DNA from: an uncultured Candidatus Poseidoniales archaeon
GTDB taxonomy: Archaea > Thermoplasmatota > Poseidoniia > Poseidoniales > Poseidoniaceae
Direction of reading: 5' to 3'
Length of the DNA: 45,896 nucleotides
NCBI GenBank assembly: GCA_905182725.1
Contig: CAJJCQ010000015.1
Span: forward strand, 1 to 45,896
This document shows, one piece after another, positions 23,008 to 32,822 of this stretch. Both the position numbers and the translations under genes were made by a program. The stretch's first letter is position 1; every line of letters starts with the position of its first letter. The notes below the pieces were generated by a model that was given only the letters and a program-made list of their open reading frames with translations, had not been told where the DNA came from and searched no databases.

Positions 23008-25122
23008 TCATTCTGCAATTTCGAACTTTGAGTCAAAGTAAGCTGAGATCCCTGGAATCGCGCTGATGAGACTGCTGTAACTTCCAAGATGATCTTGGGT
23101 ATTCGCCTCTACTAATCCGGGTGTGTTGAGAACATTCTGAAGGATTTGATCTCCGCAGTGGTTTTGTGGAGAGGTGCTGTCCACTATGTGCGAAACCGTA
23201 TTGTAGCATCCAGTAAATGTTTGTCCTTGCATAGTGTAATTTTCCAAATACATTTCGTCATTCAAAGAGAGCAATGCGTTGAGAATTGCTGTACGTGTTT
23301 GAACATCAAGTTGAGCAGGATTATACATCACTGGGTGGGAAGGAGCTGCACCATACGAAGGAAGCAAGATGTAATCCGATTCAGGCAAACACCAAGCGAG
23401 GTTGTCGGTAGCGTTGTCGTTACCACAGTATGAAGCAACGGTTGAATCCTTAGCAAAGGCGACTTCACCAACGCCTTCAGTAAGACACTTGACTGCTCCG
23501 GAGTAGGAGTAGTAAGGAGTTCCCGAATCAGGAATACTTGCATTTTCGTTAAAGAAAGCATGAATCGTGTCTCGAAGAGATTCAATATCATCCTGAGGTC
23601 CAACGACTGGAGCATAGCCTTGGGAAATCAAGTGACCCATTGGCAGTAACATTCCAGCGGATTTGAGCCAACCAGTGTGACAGGAAGTCTTTCCTGCCAT
23701 CAATGCAAATGGATCGGTTGCTGAATCATTATCAAGATAAGCCTCGGCAATATCTGAACCATTCAGAACGACTGCATGTGCATTGTAATAGGTACGTCCA
23801 TCGGATTTCTGGTCTGCAGCCATCGAGGCAAGACCGTATTCTTTCCAACCAACCCAAGCGGCTCCTCCATCCATAAAGGCGATGTCGACGTTACCAAAGC
23901 GAAGTGCTTCGATAATGGCACCTTCAGATGCAACAGGATACAAAGTCACAGTTACACCGGTTTGTTCAGCGATGTAATCAGCGAGGATTTGCGGGTTTAC
24001 ATCAGCATTGGTGTAGTCATCTTTCAGTTCAAAAGCAATTCGGATGTTCGAAACTGTCGGAGCTACGGTCTCATTAATCGAGAATTTTGTGCTGTAATAG
24101 GCTGAGATTCCAGGGACATCTTCAATCAGATTCCCGTATGAGCCAAGGTGATCAAGTGCATTGGTAGCAGAGATTGCAGGTGTGTTGAGAACGTCAGAAA
24201 GAATTGCAGCCCCTTCTGTTGAATCTTTCATAGCAACCAAAGCATTTTGCACTTTCGTAATTGTGTCAGAAGTCATAAATTCTGGATTATACATCACGGG
24301 GTGTGATGGAGCATTTCCATATGAAGGAAGCAAGATGTAATCCGATTCAGGCAAACACCAATCGAGGTTGTCGGTAACGTTGTCGTTACCACAGTATGAA
24401 GCAACGGTTGAATCCTTAGCAAAGGCTACATCGCCAACACCTTCAGTAAGGCACTTGACTGCTCCAGAGTAGGAATAGTAAGGAGTTCCTGAATCGGGAA
24501 TACTTGAGTCTTCGCTGAAAAAGTTGGTAATCGTGTTACGAAGTGATTCAACATCGCTGGAGTCGCCAATAACATTTGCGTATCCATTTCCAATAAGGAA
24601 GCCCATTGGGAGTAACATTCCTGCGGATTTCAGCCATCCTGTGTGGCACGAAGTCTTACCTGCAAGTAGAGAGAATGGATCGGTTGTTGGATCATCGTCG
24701 AGGTATGCAGCAGCCATATCAGAGTCTTTCAAGACAACTGCATGAGCGCTGTAATAGGTTCTGCCATCGGATTTCTGGTCCGCAGCAAGTGCCTCAAGAC
24801 CGTATTGTTGCCAACCGACCCAAGCAGCACCGCCATCCATGAAAGCCATGTCTGCGTTACCGAAACGAAGCGCTTCAAGAGCTGCGCCTTCGGAGTCAAT
24901 TGGGTAAAGTGTAACATCCATGTTGAGTTCTTCGCTCAAGTAGGAGGCTAATCGTTGAGGATTCTCATCGACATTCGTGTAATCGTCTTTCACACTGTAT
25001 GCGATGACAAAATCTTCTAAATCAGGAGTTTCTTTTTCATCTTCACTTCCGATACAACCTGCAAGAGAGGCAGTGGCGATTAAAAATACGAGCAATGTTG
25101 TTTTTAGCGTTCTTGTGCTCAT
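23008..25122 (-). CDS. phnD: Tandem-duplicated PhnD-like substrate-binding lipoprotein
   Basis: Solute-binding protein of a phosphonate/phosphite/phosphate-type ABC importer. The N-terminus from the ATG at 25122 is a lipoprotein signal with lipobox SLAGC, so the protein is membrane-tethered outside the cell. It then contains two full PhnD-like domains with a period of 322 residues. Each has FVIAYSVKDDYTN- or IRIAFELKDDYTN-type strand 1, an AFMDGGAAWVGW block, ADQKSDGRTYY, AGKTSCHTGWLKSAGMLLPMG, and GTPYYSYSGAVKCLTEG. Typical PhnD has one domain of about 300 residues. Conserved cysteines in both copies suggest disulfides. A longer frame to 25212 would run through the operator palindromes and is rejected. 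Confidence 0.93.
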   Translation of the reverse strand: MSTRTLKTTLLVFLIATASLAGCIGSEDEKETPDLEDFVIAYSVKDDYTNVDENPQRLASYLSEELNMDVTLYPIDSEGAALEALRFGNADMAFMDGGAAWVGWQQYGLEALAADQKSDGRTYYSAHAVVLKDSDMAAAYLDDDPTTDPFSLLAGKTSCHTGWLKSAGMLLPMGFLIGNGYANVIGDSSDVESLRNTITNFFSEDSSIPDSGTPYYSYSGAVKCLTEGVGDVAFAKDSTVASYCGNDNVTDNLDWCLPESDYILLPSYGNAPSHPVMYNPEFMTSDTITKVQNALVAMKDSTEGAAILSDVLNTPAISATNALDHLGSYGNLIEDVPGISAYYSTKFSINETVAPTVSNIRIAFELKDDYTNADVNPQILADYIAEQTGVTVTLYPVASEGAIIEALRFGNVDIAFMDGGAAWVGWKEYGLASMAADQKSDGRTYYNAHAVVLNGSDIAEAYLDNDSATDPFALMAGKTSCHTGWLKSAGMLLPMGHLISQGYAPVVGPQDDIESLRDTIHAFFNENASIPDSGTPYYSYSGAVKCLTEGVGEVAFAKDSTVASYCGNDNATDNLAWCLPESDYILLPSYGAAPSHPVMYNPAQLDVQTRTAILNALLSLNDEMYLENYTMQGQTFTGCYNTVSHIVDSTSPQNHCGDQILQNVLNTPGLVEANTQDHLGSYSSLISAIPGISAYFDSKFEIAE
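23060..25000 (-). repeat. Direct internal duplication within phnD (period 966 bp)
   Basis: The two domain copies align with an offset of 966 bases. Stretches such as 23356-23460 against 24322-24426 are almost identical at the DNA level, including third codon positions, while flanking parts have diverged more. This suggests a fairly recent duplication or continuing gene conversion within the gene. Confidence 0.85.
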
Positions 25123-25137
25123 GATCTGACCTACTGG

Positions 25138-25153
25138 TTTAGGGCGCCCTAAA
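25138..25153. promoter_or_regulatory. Operator-like perfect palindrome (proximal copy) upstream of phnD
   Basis: TTTAGGGCGCCCTAAA is a perfect 16-bp palindrome ending 16 bases before the phnD ATG. It would overlap the expected transcription start if the TATA-like element at 25162-25166 is used. The half-site TTTAGG/CCTAAA resembles DtxR/MntR-family operators; no regulator gene is in the window. Confidence 0.8.
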
Positions 25154-25159
25154 TCCTGC

Positions 25160-25168
25160 GGTATATGA
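25160..25168 (-). promoter_or_regulatory. TATA-like element between the twin operators
   Basis: On the minus strand TTCATATACC lies exactly between the two palindromes. A start site about 26 bases downstream would fall near 25138, at the edge of the proximal palindrome. An alternative A/T element, TTTTAAAA, occurs at 25192-25199. Confidence 0.5.
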
Positions 25169-25170
25169 AG

Positions 25171-25186
25171 TTTAGGGCACCCTAAA
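25171..25186. promoter_or_regulatory. Operator-like palindrome (distal copy) upstream of phnD
   Basis: TTTAGGGCACCCTAAA is the second copy of the 16-bp site; only the central two bases break its symmetry. Centre-to-centre distance from the proximal copy is 33 bp, about three helical turns. Two dimers could therefore bind the same face of the DNA around the TATA-like element. Confidence 0.8.
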
Positions 25187-25231
25187 TCTCCTTTTAAAAT
25201 GGCCTCTGCCAAACACTAAAAGGGACACTGC

Positions 25232-28144: not shown

Positions 28145-30166
28145 ATGGCAGGACACACCCGGTATAGATTCACACACCTCCTCTCGCGCAGTTCAACAGC
28201 AATTGGTTTGATTTTCTTAATGATTCTCATGGGATGTTCACCACTTTTCACAGCACAAGTCACCTTGGACTCAAGTGAGCAATTACCTGCGGATGGACGA
28301 CAATCTCTTGCTATCGAAGAGGAATGTGAAGGTTTGAAATTTGAAGACCTTTTTAATTATGATTTTGCTAATTTTATCATCAACGTTGGTGACGATTGGG
28401 CTGTTGCTGAAATGGATGCTGACGCATTTGTCAACGGTAGCAAATCTGCAATCGTTCGAGCGAACCTCGATGGATTATTCGAAGGGCTTTCCGGCGGAGA
28501 CAATGGATACATCAGTACTGATGAACGTGACGCAGTACGTGCAATTGGCCCGAAATGTATCGGCGTCATGGACACTCGCGTAGGAATACGTGAAGGTATC
28601 CCTCATCGCGGCACTCCAGACTGGAACAACATGTCTTTTGTCGAAGATGGAATTGGATTAGAGGAAGTTGACCTTGTCCCAGCAAACCATCCTGAACAAC
28701 GCTCTTGCCAGAATCTTGGTTCAGCAAATGGATGTAAAGAAGTACCTGTGGAGGTGACTGATGACTTACAGATCCAGTTATTCTTGGCGGATGCAGAATC
28801 AAATAACGTTCGCTTCGACCAACTTCCGAACAGTGGTGATTCTAATTTCACTTTAGCATTGAATATTACCAACATGTCCTATGCTCATCTTGAACTCAAT
28901 TTCCCTCTTAAGCAAGGATTGCGAATGATAAATTATTCAATTCAAGATACGATCACGAATAATGACGGGTCAGTGAACGTTTCTGAAAACATGGCATTGA
29001 GTGGCCCTGAAGCAATATATCTTCCTGACGGTCGTCTGCGAGTGAACCAAGTCGTTACCTATGCAACCTCTGAATCTTCAATTCTTCGACAATTGTTTAT
29101 CGATTTCACGACGATGGCTCCAGAAACAAATGATGCACCTGAATGGAGTTCGAATGCTCCAGAAGATGGAACTGTCATCCCGGTACTTGGGTTGACTTCA
29201 GGTAATGATGTCCTAGCCGTTGCTGGTGAAAGAACAGAGATGTGGGCAACCGACGATAGTGGGTGGGGATTGGAATGCAGTTTCGCTGAAACCGGATGGA
29301 GTGCTTCACTCGATGGTGAAGGAGATCTGATGGTCTCTACAGTAAATACTCAAGCACAGTCTTCGGATGCGGAGTGCTACGTTGTCGACCCGTTTGGCTC
29401 AATGTCCATCGATTCACGAAACTGGACTTTTGGCGAGGTATTCACTTCAAGTGGTCTTCTCTCTGAAACTGGTGACAGTATCGAATTTACCATCACACCA
29501 ACTGGTTTAGTCAACGAATTAGAAATTTCTGCACACGCTCATCAAATGAATACCATGGGCCAAATGCGTAGTGTTACGCTTGCTTCAGATGCTTCAACGA
29601 TTTCGTTACCTCTTGATGGATTATCTCCTGGTGCAATCATGGTCATGGGTCAAGCTGAAAGTTCAACCATGTTGGCCCTTGATTTTATGCTCGACTTTGA
29701 CCTTGAAAAAGCAAGTCTGCCACCGCTGGTCACAGTCAAGAAGAATCTTGATGGCGAAAATGCAACGTGGGACGCAAGTGGTCTCACCTTTACTTTGCAA
29801 GGTGATGTGTTAGACCCCGATGGTGAAGATGTGTCACTCTCACTTCGCCTATGCGGCTATACAACAAACGATTTCTTGCGCGCTGGAAGTGCTTGGGAGA
29901 TCGATGTCAATATCGTTTCATGCTCCTCTCAAAACCCTCCTGTAACCGCTTATGACATCGTCTTAACAGCAACTGATGAGTCGGGAACCATGACGACACT
30001 GTCGGTATATGTTCCAGACCCATATGCGAACAATGACGGTGATAATAATGGTGATGACAGTACGATTACGGTTGAAGAAGAAGGACTCCCTGCCATCTCT
30101 ATGATGGCAACGTTGAGCATTGTTTTACTCGGTGCTGCCTTCGCAGGAAGAGCTCGAAAAGAGTGA
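28145..30166 (+). CDS. Large secreted/cell-surface protein with C-terminal membrane anchor
   Basis: 673 residues. The N-terminus has a basic region and hydrophobic core ending LMILMGCSP, a signal peptide with a possible lipobox. The body is Asp/Ser/Thr-rich, with beta-rich segments and several Cys. It includes an acidic Gly loop near residues 115-130 (GGDNGYISTDERDAV) that resembles a calcium-binding loop, and a later APEWSSNAPEDGTVIPV cadherin/PKD-like region. The C-terminus is DDST then GLPAISMMATLSIVLLGAAFAGRARKE: a hydrophobic helix followed by a basic stop-transfer, as in archaeal surface proteins anchored or sorted at the C-terminus. It follows the exporter genes by 68 bases and may be co-transcribed. 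Function unknown. Confidence 0.82.
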   Translation: MAGHTRYRFTHLLSRSSTAIGLIFLMILMGCSPLFTAQVTLDSSEQLPADGRQSLAIEEECEGLKFEDLFNYDFANFIINVGDDWAVAEMDADAFVNGSKSAIVRANLDGLFEGLSGGDNGYISTDERDAVRAIGPKCIGVMDTRVGIREGIPHRGTPDWNNMSFVEDGIGLEEVDLVPANHPEQRSCQNLGSANGCKEVPVEVTDDLQIQLFLADAESNNVRFDQLPNSGDSNFTLALNITNMSYAHLELNFPLKQGLRMINYSIQDTITNNDGSVNVSENMALSGPEAIYLPDGRLRVNQVVTYATSESSILRQLFIDFTTMAPETNDAPEWSSNAPEDGTVIPVLGLTSGNDVLAVAGERTEMWATDDSGWGLECSFAETGWSASLDGEGDLMVSTVNTQAQSSDAECYVVDPFGSMSIDSRNWTFGEVFTSSGLLSETGDSIEFTITPTGLVNELEISAHAHQMNTMGQMRSVTLASDASTISLPLDGLSPGAIMVMGQAESSTMLALDFMLDFDLEKASLPPLVTVKKNLDGENATWDASGLTFTLQGDVLDPDGEDVSLSLRLCGYTTNDFLRAGSAWEIDVNIVSCSSQNPPVTAYDIVLTATDESGTMTTLSVYVPDPYANNDGDNNGDDSTITVEEEGLPAISMMATLSIVLLGAAFAGRARKE

Positions 30167-30222: not shown

Positions 30223-31773
30223 ATGTTCGCGGGTGTAATTGAGTCAAAAAGTCATGAAGGAGGATTTCTAGTTTCGTTTACTGGATCTTCTCCCGCCCTA
30301 GAGTCCATCATCATCAATGCTGAAACTGGCATTTACATCGGTAAAGTCGATGCAGTACTTGGAAATACTAATTCTCCACTCGCTCACGTCGCACATGTTG
30401 ACCGAAAACTCGATCTCGACTCACTGGTCGGTATCAATGTAGGAATTCGTGCCAAAAAACAACGTGAAGAACGTCGAGAGCGTGATTCGGACCGTGGCCA
30501 AAGAGGCAATGACCGAGGATACCAAAGTCAAGACCGTCAAGGTGGACGCTTTGAGCGAAACGACCGTGGGCAAGACAATAACCGCAACGGCGGAGATTGG
30601 GATTGTCCAAAATGTCAGAATAACAATTTCGCTTTCCGAACTGAATGCAATCGCTGTGGAGAAGCTCGTGGCGCTGGTGGCGCTGGTGGAGGACGCAGTC
30701 CTCGACAAGATGACCGTAGAGATGGAAACCAAGGATACCAGAGCAGAGACCGTCAAGGTGGACGCTTTGAGCGAAACGACCGTGGGCAAGACAACAACCG
30801 TAACGGCGGAGATTGGGATTGTCCAAAATGTCAGAATAACAATTTCGCTTTCCGAACTGAATGCAATCGCTGTGGAGATGCTCGTGGCGCTGGTGGAGGA
30901 CGTGGTCCTCGACAAGACGACCGAAGAGGTGGAAACCAAGGCTATCAAAGTAGAGACCGCCAAGGTGGACGCTTTGAGCAAAACGACCGTGGACAAAACA
31001 ACCGCAACGGCGGAGATTGGGATTGTCCGAAATGTCGAAATAATAATTTCGCATTCCGAACTGAATGTAACTCATGTGGACTTCCGCGAAGCGGTGGAAA
31101 TGACCGAAATGGTGGAAACGACCGACGTGGCGGCAATGACCGATACGGAGGTAATGACCGACGTGGCGGCAATGATCGTGGTCGAGAAACGAAAGTCTAC
31201 ACCGATAACGATTGGGATTGTCCAAAATGTCAAAACTCAAACTTCGCATTCCGTCAAGAATGTAATCGCTGCCAAGCACCTCGCTCTGGCGCCGGTGGCG
31301 GTGGCGGCGGTGGAAGACCACCACAACGCGATGACCGAAGAGCACCTCGACGCGATGATGGTGGAAGACCTCCTCGACGCGATAACGGTGGACGACCACC
31401 ACAACGCGATGACCGAAGAGCACCTCGACGCGATGATGGTGGAAGACCTCCTCGACGCGATGACGGTGGACGACCTCCACAACGCGATGACCGTTCTCGA
31501 GCTCCTCGAAGTGATGATGGTGGACGGCCTCCACAACGAGATGATGGTGCAAGACCTCCTCGTCACGAAGGTGGACGACAGCCTCGTCGAGATGGCCGAG
31601 ACCGAAGAAGTGACGGTGGCGGCTATCAAAGCGGAGACTCATACGGTCAAGGTAGAGCACCTGAACGCAAGTCAAGAGAACCTCGAAACTTTAGAAAATC
31701 ACAAGGCAATGGACCTGGGCATGCACATAACCGCCCACCAAAGCCTCTCATCAACCCTGACCGAGATGATTGA
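30223..31773 (+). CDS. Gar1-like domain fused to four RanBP2-type zinc fingers and Arg/Gly/Asp-rich tail
   Basis: Residues 1-~85 match the Gar1/Naf RNA-binding fold of H/ACA pseudouridylation RNPs: FAGVIES, GGFLVSF, YIGKVDAVLGNTNSPLAHV, and VGINVGI followed by KK and an RE-rich segment. Four RanBP2-type fingers follow in Arg/Gly/Asn-rich linkers, pattern W-x-C-x2-C-x3-N-x6-C-x2-C. Their cysteines are 128/131/142/145, 200/203/214/217, 268/271/282/285 and 333/336/347/350. Each finger keeps DWDCPKC and a FAF(R)xECNxC-type core, close to FUS and ZRANB2 fingers that bind single-stranded RNA. Residues ~355-500 are a repetitive PPRRDDGGR/PPQRDDRR low-complexity tail. GGTGAAGG sits 3 bases before the ATG. 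Predicted RNA-binding RNP component; the zinc fingers on a Gar1 are unusual. Confidence 0.88.
   Translation: MFAGVIESKSHEGGFLVSFTGSSPALESIIINAETGIYIGKVDAVLGNTNSPLAHVAHVDRKLDLDSLVGINVGIRAKKQREERRERDSDRGQRGNDRGYQSQDRQGGRFERNDRGQDNNRNGGDWDCPKCQNNNFAFRTECNRCGEARGAGGAGGGRSPRQDDRRDGNQGYQSRDRQGGRFERNDRGQDNNRNGGDWDCPKCQNNNFAFRTECNRCGDARGAGGGRGPRQDDRRGGNQGYQSRDRQGGRFEQNDRGQNNRNGGDWDCPKCRNNNFAFRTECNSCGLPRSGGNDRNGGNDRRGGNDRYGGNDRRGGNDRGRETKVYTDNDWDCPKCQNSNFAFRQECNRCQAPRSGAGGGGGGGRPPQRDDRRAPRRDDGGRPPRRDNGGRPPQRDDRRAPRRDDGGRPPRRDDGGRPPQRDDRSRAPRSDDGGRPPQRDDGARPPRHEGGRQPRRDGRDRRSDGGGYQSGDSYGQGRAPERKSREPRNFRKSQGNGPGHAHNRPPKPLINPDRDD
30516..31240 (+). repeat. Tandem DNA repeats encoding the zinc-finger/linker units
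   Basis: Four in-frame units of linker plus RanBP2 finger with successive spacings of 216, 204 and 195 bases (finger starts at 30595, 30811, 31015 and 31210). Units 1 and 2 are nearly identical in DNA, units 3 and 4 more diverged, indicating stepwise expansion. The repeats also generate long spurious frames on both strands. Confidence 0.9.
31321..31554 (+). repeat. 78-bp minisatellite encoding the Arg/Asp/Gly/Pro tail
   Basis: A 78-base (26-codon) unit beginning CCACAACGCGATGACC starts at 31321, 31399 and 31477. The first two copies are almost identical and the third is diverged. Because the unit length is a multiple of three, copy-number changes would keep the frame, as in expanding low-complexity protein tails. 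Confidence 0.88.
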
Positions 31774-31787
31774 AAGGGGATGAAGCG

Positions 31788-32822
31788 ATGGGTGCTGAAC
31801 ATCACTATCTCAACGCCGTAGAAGCCTATGACGAAGGTGATGTGGAAACTGCATATGAAGAAGCCTTCAAAGCAGTTGAGATCGATCCCGAACATGTTGA
31901 CGCTTGGCAATTGTGTGCTGAAACGGCACTTCCACAAAAAGGAGAAAAACCTTCTTTACTTCAAGCAGCAAAATCATTAGCGGCAGTTCGAAAGATCATT
32001 GCACTTGACCCAAACCGCACCTCAATGTGGATGCTTGGTGGTCGACTACTCACAGATGAATTGGGATTGCTTAGCGAAGGTTTGCAATGGTGGCAAGACC
32101 TACGTCATCAACTTCCCAAAGAGGTGACACCCTTGGTAGAACAAGCAGCATTACTCGCTGACATGGGCCATTACCTTGAAGCAAAGTATCGCCTTGATAC
32201 AATCATCGAGGATAAGTTAGACGGTGGACCAACACAAATTGCTAAAATTCATCAATTACGGAGCCAAGTAATTGCTGCAGCCAACCTCCAAACTTCTGAA
32301 CATTTCAAACCCTGGGAAAAGCATCACAACGGCTGGGGCGCAATTGAACTTAAGATGGGCAAGGGCCCGGTATCGGAAAGTTTCCTTTTCCTCATAACAA
32401 CAGTACCTGTCTTGATGATTGTCGTCTATTTCTCTAACCAAATTGCTGGTAGGGGTTGGGGAGCGTTTTGTCTGACAAGTTTGGTAATCTTTGGCACAGT
32501 TCTGTTTGGAATGCGGACTGCAAAGCGTATGTTCCACAGTATCAATCGGCCAGCGTTTAACTTGCTTCGCGCAATGAATTTCGAGGCAAACACCGGCTAT
32601 TCGATTATTCATTCCGATATTCGAACTTCTCCTCTTTACATGTTCATCATGCAAAGAAAACCAAAAGCATGGCAAGAGCGGATGTTGAAAATCATCGATT
32701 CCGATACTGCTCTACCAATGAACTGGAAACCAAATTTCCCCGATTTCGAATCTCACTTGGATGAAGTGGGATATATTGACGAAGAAGGTGAAGAGAGTTT
32801 CGAAGCCTTTGAAGAAGAATGA
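31788..32822 (+). CDS. TPR-containing membrane protein of unknown function
   Basis: About 344 residues. The N-terminal ~170 residues are helical repeats of TPR type (HYLNAVEAYDEGDVETAYEEAFKAVEIDPEHVDAW is the clearest pair, followed by AVRKIIALDPNRTSMWMLGGRLL and LLADMGHYLEAKYRLDTII). Two hydrophobic helices (about 203-223 and 230-248) and a ~100-residue C-terminal cytoplasmic region with an acidic end come next. Start at the ATG at 31788 with GGGGATGA just upstream; the TTG at 31770 overlaps the preceding stop. It begins 14 bases after the Gar1-zinc finger gene, so they are probably co-transcribed. Function unknown; TPRs suggest protein docking at the membrane. Confidence 0.8.
   Translation: MGAEHHYLNAVEAYDEGDVETAYEEAFKAVEIDPEHVDAWQLCAETALPQKGEKPSLLQAAKSLAAVRKIIALDPNRTSMWMLGGRLLTDELGLLSEGLQWWQDLRHQLPKEVTPLVEQAALLADMGHYLEAKYRLDTIIEDKLDGGPTQIAKIHQLRSQVIAAANLQTSEHFKPWEKHHNGWGAIELKMGKGPVSESFLFLITTVPVLMIVVYFSNQIAGRGWGAFCLTSLVIFGTVLFGMRTAKRMFHSINRPAFNLLRAMNFEANTGYSIIHSDIRTSPLYMFIMQRKPKAWQERMLKIIDSDTALPMNWKPNFPDFESHLDEVGYIDEEGEESFEAFEEE

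Follow-up and report, generated by a model that had tools for sequence, protein, structure and literature searches.

Gar1, a component of the H/ACA RNP, touches the thumb loop of Cbf5 at its root, makes catalysis faster and aids product release, and does not contact the substrate RNA (PMC4551948). Archaeal Gar1 is described in a review as lacking the Gly/Arg-rich (GAR) flanks of the eukaryotic type, and in yeast a Gar1 without these flanks suffices (PMC7991803). The RG/RGG repeats of the C. elegans GAR1 homologue are reported to contribute to sub-nucleolar phase separation (PMC9633708). Concerning zinc fingers of the RanBP2 type, GGU recognition in ZRANB2 is achieved by residues D4, N14, R20, and N24, and FUS and EWS, which carry an aromatic Trp19, still bind GGU (PMC6384913). 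Here, we analyzed an archaeal locus in which a Gar1 domain appears to be fused to fingers of this kind.

The window, i.e. the whole stretch of DNA that was analyzed (45,896 nucleotides), comes from a Poseidoniaceae (Marine Group II) genome of 1.66 Mb that is 80.6% complete. The features of the fusion gene and of the genes mentioned below are collected in Table 1.

Table 1 Coordinates of the fusion gene, its parts, and other genes of the window.
Feature	Position	Strand	Basis or remark
Gar1-RanBP2-finger fusion ORF	30223..31773	+	516 aa, ATG start; ORF list
Gar1 domain, residues 1-84	30223..30474	+	hhalign, AlphaFold, Foldseek
Linker rich in R/D/G, residues 85-123	30475..30591	+	composition
RanBP2/FUS-type zinc finger 1, residues 124-148, GDWDCPKCQNNNFAFRTECNRCGEA	30592..30666	+	Pfam PF00641
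RanBP2 zinc finger 2, residues 196-220	30808..30882	+	Pfam PF00641
RanBP2 zinc finger 3, residues 264-288	31012..31086	+	Pfam PF00641
RanBP2 zinc finger 4, residues 329-353	31207..31281	+	Pfam PF00641; top-scoring finger, 40.3 bits
216-bp tandem repeat, 2.7 copies, linker + finger	30512..31067	+	Tandem Repeats Finder
Repetitive Arg/Gly/Asp/Pro-rich C-terminal tail	31282..31686	+	composition, tandem repeats
Conserved C-terminal motif NFRKSQGNGPGHAHNRPPKPL	31687..31770	+	HAHN in 47/53 full-length Poseidoniaceae proteins
-1 neighbor	28145..30166		673 aa
+1 neighbor	31770..32822		350 aa
Multi-lobed substrate-binding protein (suggested)	23008..25212	-	734 aa

The first-pass annotation had described a protein with a Gar1-like N-terminus, four perfect fingers, and an RGD/RGG-like tail. 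The N-terminal stretch, YIGKVDAVLGNTNSPL, is indeed present in the open reading frame, as are four exact W-x-C-x2-C-x3-N-x6-C-x2-C fingers, with their Trp at residues 126, 198, 266, and 331. The profile Pfam PF00641 (Zn_ribbon_RanBP) matched four stretches with 107.9 bits against a cut-off of 27 (E 1.4e-31), while no RRM was found among the Pfam matches of the protein up to E 1. Fingers 1 to 3 are near-identical because of the 216-bp tandem repeat, and Tandem Repeats Finder also detected a 78-bp tandem repeat within the gene. The wording for the tail was only partly apt. Residues 86-516 contain 20% Arg, 18% Gly, and 13% Asp, with 13 RG and 3 RGG, and "RGG-like" is a fair description of the linkers; a literal RGD was not seen, and the final 160 residues form an RPPRRDDGG-type repeat without any RG dipeptide. 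From its composition, the C-terminal tail at 31282..31686 was judged to be disordered. The family consensus of the C-terminal motif is approximately FRKxxGKxxGHAHNRPPxPL.

Taken singly, the N-terminus of the window's protein resembles Gar1 weakly, with scores under the curated cut-offs: E 0.011 and 16 bits against Pfam Gar1 (PF04410; cut-off 29.3), and E 0.0015, also below the cut-off, against NCBIfam Gar1. We treated this sub-threshold score as a sign of divergence rather than as disproof of Gar1 membership. At the family level, the earlier assignment to Gar1 became clear. An alignment of 22 Poseidoniales N-domains served as query for family-level profile searches; its members matched six NCBIfam models, all of them Gar1 (up to 18 of the 22 members for one model, best E 2.6e-6), and Pfam Gar1 matched 20 of the 22. 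Against PDB profiles, the best four matches of the alignment were all Pyrococcus Gar1, at weak E values of 0.06-0.23, and hhalign aligned the Poseidoniales N-domain with bare Thermoplasmatota Gar1 over columns 1-80, i.e. the whole domain (E 6.5e-12, probability 97.5). In a 243-genome sample of the phylum, the alignment and PF04410 converged on the same loci outside the Poseidoniales, e.g. G248:C5:154318, G170:C185:6830, G218:C21:14100, and loci in G233 and G242.

The AlphaFold2 model of the N-domain, based on 36 Poseidoniaceae sequences, has a pLDDT of 88.5. When it was compared with the PDB by Foldseek, the top 13 matches were all Gar1 chains, taken from H/ACA RNPs of Pyrococcus, yeast, human, and insect, with an rmsd of about 2 Å and a TM (target) of up to 0.84; the best single E value was 1.4e-3, none being below 0.001. 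The predicted fold is thus the beta-barrel of Gar1. A Naf1 identity was rejected, since Foldseek placed Gar1 above Naf1. Together, the profile alignments and the predicted fold argue firmly for homology of the N-terminal domain to Gar1. The canonical Gar1 motif FGPVxxPY is replaced by LGNTNSPL in the Poseidoniales protein, so the docking on Cbf5 could have changed. For the Gar1 domain and the last finger, dN was 0.06-0.38 against dS > 1 among the estimable pairs, with dS near saturation.

The N-domain of the fusion was detected in 89 of 100 Poseidoniales genomes, covering both families, and in 17 of the 19 high-quality ones; no copy was detected in one genome that is 92% complete (G047). There is normally one copy per genome. 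One Poseidoniaceae genome (G202) has two, at C37:5954-6205 and C38:28086-28337, reflecting either a duplication or a strain mixture. The first-pass annotation had raised the objections that the fusion might be an assembly or lineage-specific oddity, and that a separate canonical gar1 might exist elsewhere. The same layout recurs in independent genomes, which disposes of the first, and its spread over the whole order shows that the fusion is not an oddity of one lineage. Recent gene transfer and an assembly chimera were likewise rejected on the strength of the order-wide presence and the conserved synteny, and a search of viral contigs with the Gar1 profile, addressing a viral origin, gave no match. 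As to a separate gene, PF04410 matched nothing else in the window's own genome, which is 80.6% complete. Among the 100 Poseidoniales genomes, including one assembled in a single contig (G056), no sequence scored above the PF04410 cut-off, the top Gar1-like match was nearly always the fusion, and no canonical gar1 beside tfb was found. The fusion is thus the only Gar1 candidate detected across the Poseidoniales. The expected partners are encoded as well: Cbf5 in the own genome (G000:C10:42425-43360) scored 316 bits against a cut-off of 238 and aligned over its full length with a solved Cbf5 (E 9e-72), Cbf5 was also found in the 12 relatives tested, and Nop10 was found in the own genome (G000:C16:13958-14092), the only one checked for it.

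In the sister lineage of the same class, Marine Group III, Gar1 is bare (74-79 aa), and the gene lies directly before or overlaps tfb, the TFIIB gene. In contrast, the Poseidoniales gene is not adjacent to tfb and is surrounded by a cluster of genes for membrane and secreted proteins. In both families, a large protein is encoded at -1 (108 loci) and a TPR protein at +1 (77 loci). Within the window, the -1 protein has a terminal hydrophobic segment and no clear family, and the +1 protein shows weak TPR matches, also without a clear family. Another product of the window, of 734 residues, matches Pfam Phosphonate-bd (2.4e-43) and Transferrin (2.8e-40), which suggests a multi-lobed substrate-binding protein.

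In the 243-genome phylum sample, 46 genomes have RanBP2 fingers that score above the Pfam cut-off, and 45 of these genomes are Poseidoniales. All 51 ungapped full-length Poseidoniaceae proteins carry between 1 and 4 fingers; two further proteins (L103 and L165) are fingerless in appearance only, their contigs being N-gapped. The second family has 0-3 fingers, and genera g4 and g8 are fingerless while retaining a basic R/G tail; whatever the role of Gar1 is, it therefore does not require the fingers. The residues of the fingers are conserved and the linkers are variable. Four positions stand out among 149 distinct standard fingers: the equivalent of ZRANB2 D4, which precedes the Trp, is Asp in 149; that of N14, at the start of NxN, is Asn in 148; that of R20 is Arg in 149; and that of N24, which follows the third Cys, is Asn in 148. 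An aromatic residue, Phe or Tyr, occupies position 17 in all 149, and position 19 is mostly Phe. Sequence matches of the fingers in the PDB include ZNF265/ZRANB2 and FUS, and also the Nup358 array. By their contact residues, the fingers fit the single-stranded-RNA-binding group of ZRANB2, FUS, and EWS, as judged from sequence. A distinct subtype in the second family (L062, L066, L068, L069, and L071, from genera g6, g10, and g11) has CNRxxC spacing (C-x4-C) and a Lys where the standard fingers have the RNA-contacting Arg.

In the tree of the Gar1 domain, the Poseidoniales form one clade (support 100/99), and the fingerless genera are nested inside the finger-bearing second family (95/97); the tree is based on 85 columns, leaves many forks unresolved, and contains two long branches, g9 and g12, whose placement is unsure. 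Given the nested position of the fingerless genera, ancestral gain followed by later loss is the simplest history, and the Poseidoniales ancestor probably already had the fingers, with two genera losing them afterwards. The first-pass annotation had allowed for either an independent or an ancestral, eukaryote-shared origin of the architecture. The latter is not supported: the arrangement seems to have arisen independently of that in eukaryotes, because Gar1 is bare or basic-tailed in Marine Group III and in the rest of the sampled phylum. Two Gar1 proteins of another Thermoplasmatota genus, g39 (L251 and L252), have an Arg/Lys/Gly-rich tail of about 60 residues without fingers, indicating that archaeal Gar1 acquired basic tails on more than one occasion. 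The long frames of L250, L253, and L254 were rejected as Gar1 tails, since their length stems mainly from the open stretch preceding the Gar1 match; a short basic tail is also present in L253.

On balance, we consider it probable that the protein is a genuine H/ACA Gar1 to which the lineage has added a multivalent tail that would bind GGU-type single-stranded RNA and tether the RNP to pre-rRNA. As other archaeal Gar1 proteins do, its N-terminal barrel would attach to Cbf5 and control the thumb loop. Short single-stranded GG(U/G) sites, whether in pre-rRNA, guide RNA, or tRNA, would be recognized by the one to four FUS/EWS-type fingers, which are spaced by flexible linkers rich in Arg and Gly. 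This contact would raise the local affinity and hold the enzyme on nascent rRNA. Ribosome-assembly factors might also be concentrated in this way and condensates favored. Direct RNA contact would thus be an addition to the usual task of Gar1, which the Poseidoniales protein presumably keeps. A bolder version, which we hold only tentatively and regard as rather unlikely, is that the order evolved its own "eukaryote-style" H/ACA RNP, in which the sole Gar1, with its Arg/Gly-rich tail and FUS-like GGU-binding fingers, would gather pre-rRNA and the modification machinery in a nucleolus-like condensate.

That the protein serves instead as a general chaperone for RNA or as a scaffold of condensates is, in our opinion, unlikely; its Gar1-like barrel would then be a relic or moonlighting domain, and its fingers and RG-rich tail would mainly coat single-stranded RNA (mRNA or pre-rRNA), with no need for an H/ACA role. 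The finger and tail portion makes up most of the protein (about 430 of 516 residues), the Gar1 signature is degenerate, and the gene is away from tfb, as this reading would have it. However, the protein is the sole Gar1 candidate detected in genomes that encode Cbf5, and the Gar1 domain is kept more strictly than the fingers, g4 and g8 having retained the former and lost the latter.

The RanBP2 fingers of Npl4, ZRANB1, and Nup358 make protein-protein contacts, and in Npl4-type ubiquitin binders the second Cys is followed by a Thr-Phe pair. That the Poseidoniales fingers similarly contact proteins rather than RNA, and recruit other factors to the H/ACA RNP, seems quite improbable to us: the presence of the Nup358 array among the PDB matches is in its favor, but the fingers have x-Asn where the ubiquitin binders have Thr-Phe, and the four GGU-contacting residues of ZRANB2, FUS, and EWS (Asp, Asn, Arg, and Asn) hardly vary in them. 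The division of RanBP2 fingers into RNA- and protein-binding groups (PMC6384913, PMC6509490) is what gives this alternative its basis. Finally, a chance expansion, in which tandem DNA duplication multiplied functionless Arg/Gly repeats and fingers, would agree with the 216-bp and 78-bp repeats and with the range of finger numbers in the Poseidoniaceae, but is very hard to reconcile with the conservation of finger residues relative to the variable linkers and with at least one finger in every ungapped full-length protein of that family.

Among 5.39 million openly available papers, none was found that describes RanBP2 or any other zinc fingers on an archaeal Gar1, or Gar1 itself in the Poseidoniales, most subscription journals being outside the scope of this search. 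Both the Gar1 and the finger parts are already known; their combination and its order-wide fixation appear to be new. An entire order of abundant ocean archaea departs from the rule of a GAR-less archaeal Gar1 and adds FUS-type fingers to it. The curated Gar1 profiles miss the Poseidoniales protein, and at standard cut-offs these genomes seem to lack Gar1, an apparent gap that the fusion fills. The order also offers an apparently independent natural replicate for the role of multivalent RNA-binding tails in rRNA-modifying RNPs, and an opening to ask whether archaea make nucleolus-like condensates.

Compared with known systems, the protein resembles archaeal Gar1 (PF04410; Pyrococcus 2ey4 and 2hvy; the bare Marine Group III form) in its fold, its full-length alignment, its usual single copy, and its accompaniment by Cbf5 and, in the own genome, Nop10; it differs in the finger-containing tail of up to about 430 residues, the changed FGPVxxPY motif, and the absence of a tfb neighbor. 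In the g39 proteins, the Gar1 core likewise runs into a basic tail that looks disordered; this tail is shorter and has no fingers. With FUS, EWS, TAF15, and ZRANB2, the protein shares the C4 finger with its NxNFAxR..CNxC core, the Asp before the Trp, and RG-rich flanks, and with FUS and EWS also the aromatic residue at finger position 19. Unlike the FET proteins (FUS, EWS, and TAF15), it has no RRM, is fused to Gar1, and contains up to four fingers, which have CX2C spacing rather than the CX4C of FUS. Yeast and human GAR1 similarly combine a Gar1 core with Arg/Gly-rich low-complexity sequence, whereas the Poseidoniales extension is C-terminal only, has few RGG and many Asp and Pro, and bears zinc fingers, of which we know none in eukaryotic GAR1. 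Since the sister lineages have a bare Gar1, the likeness to eukaryotic GAR1 points to convergence.
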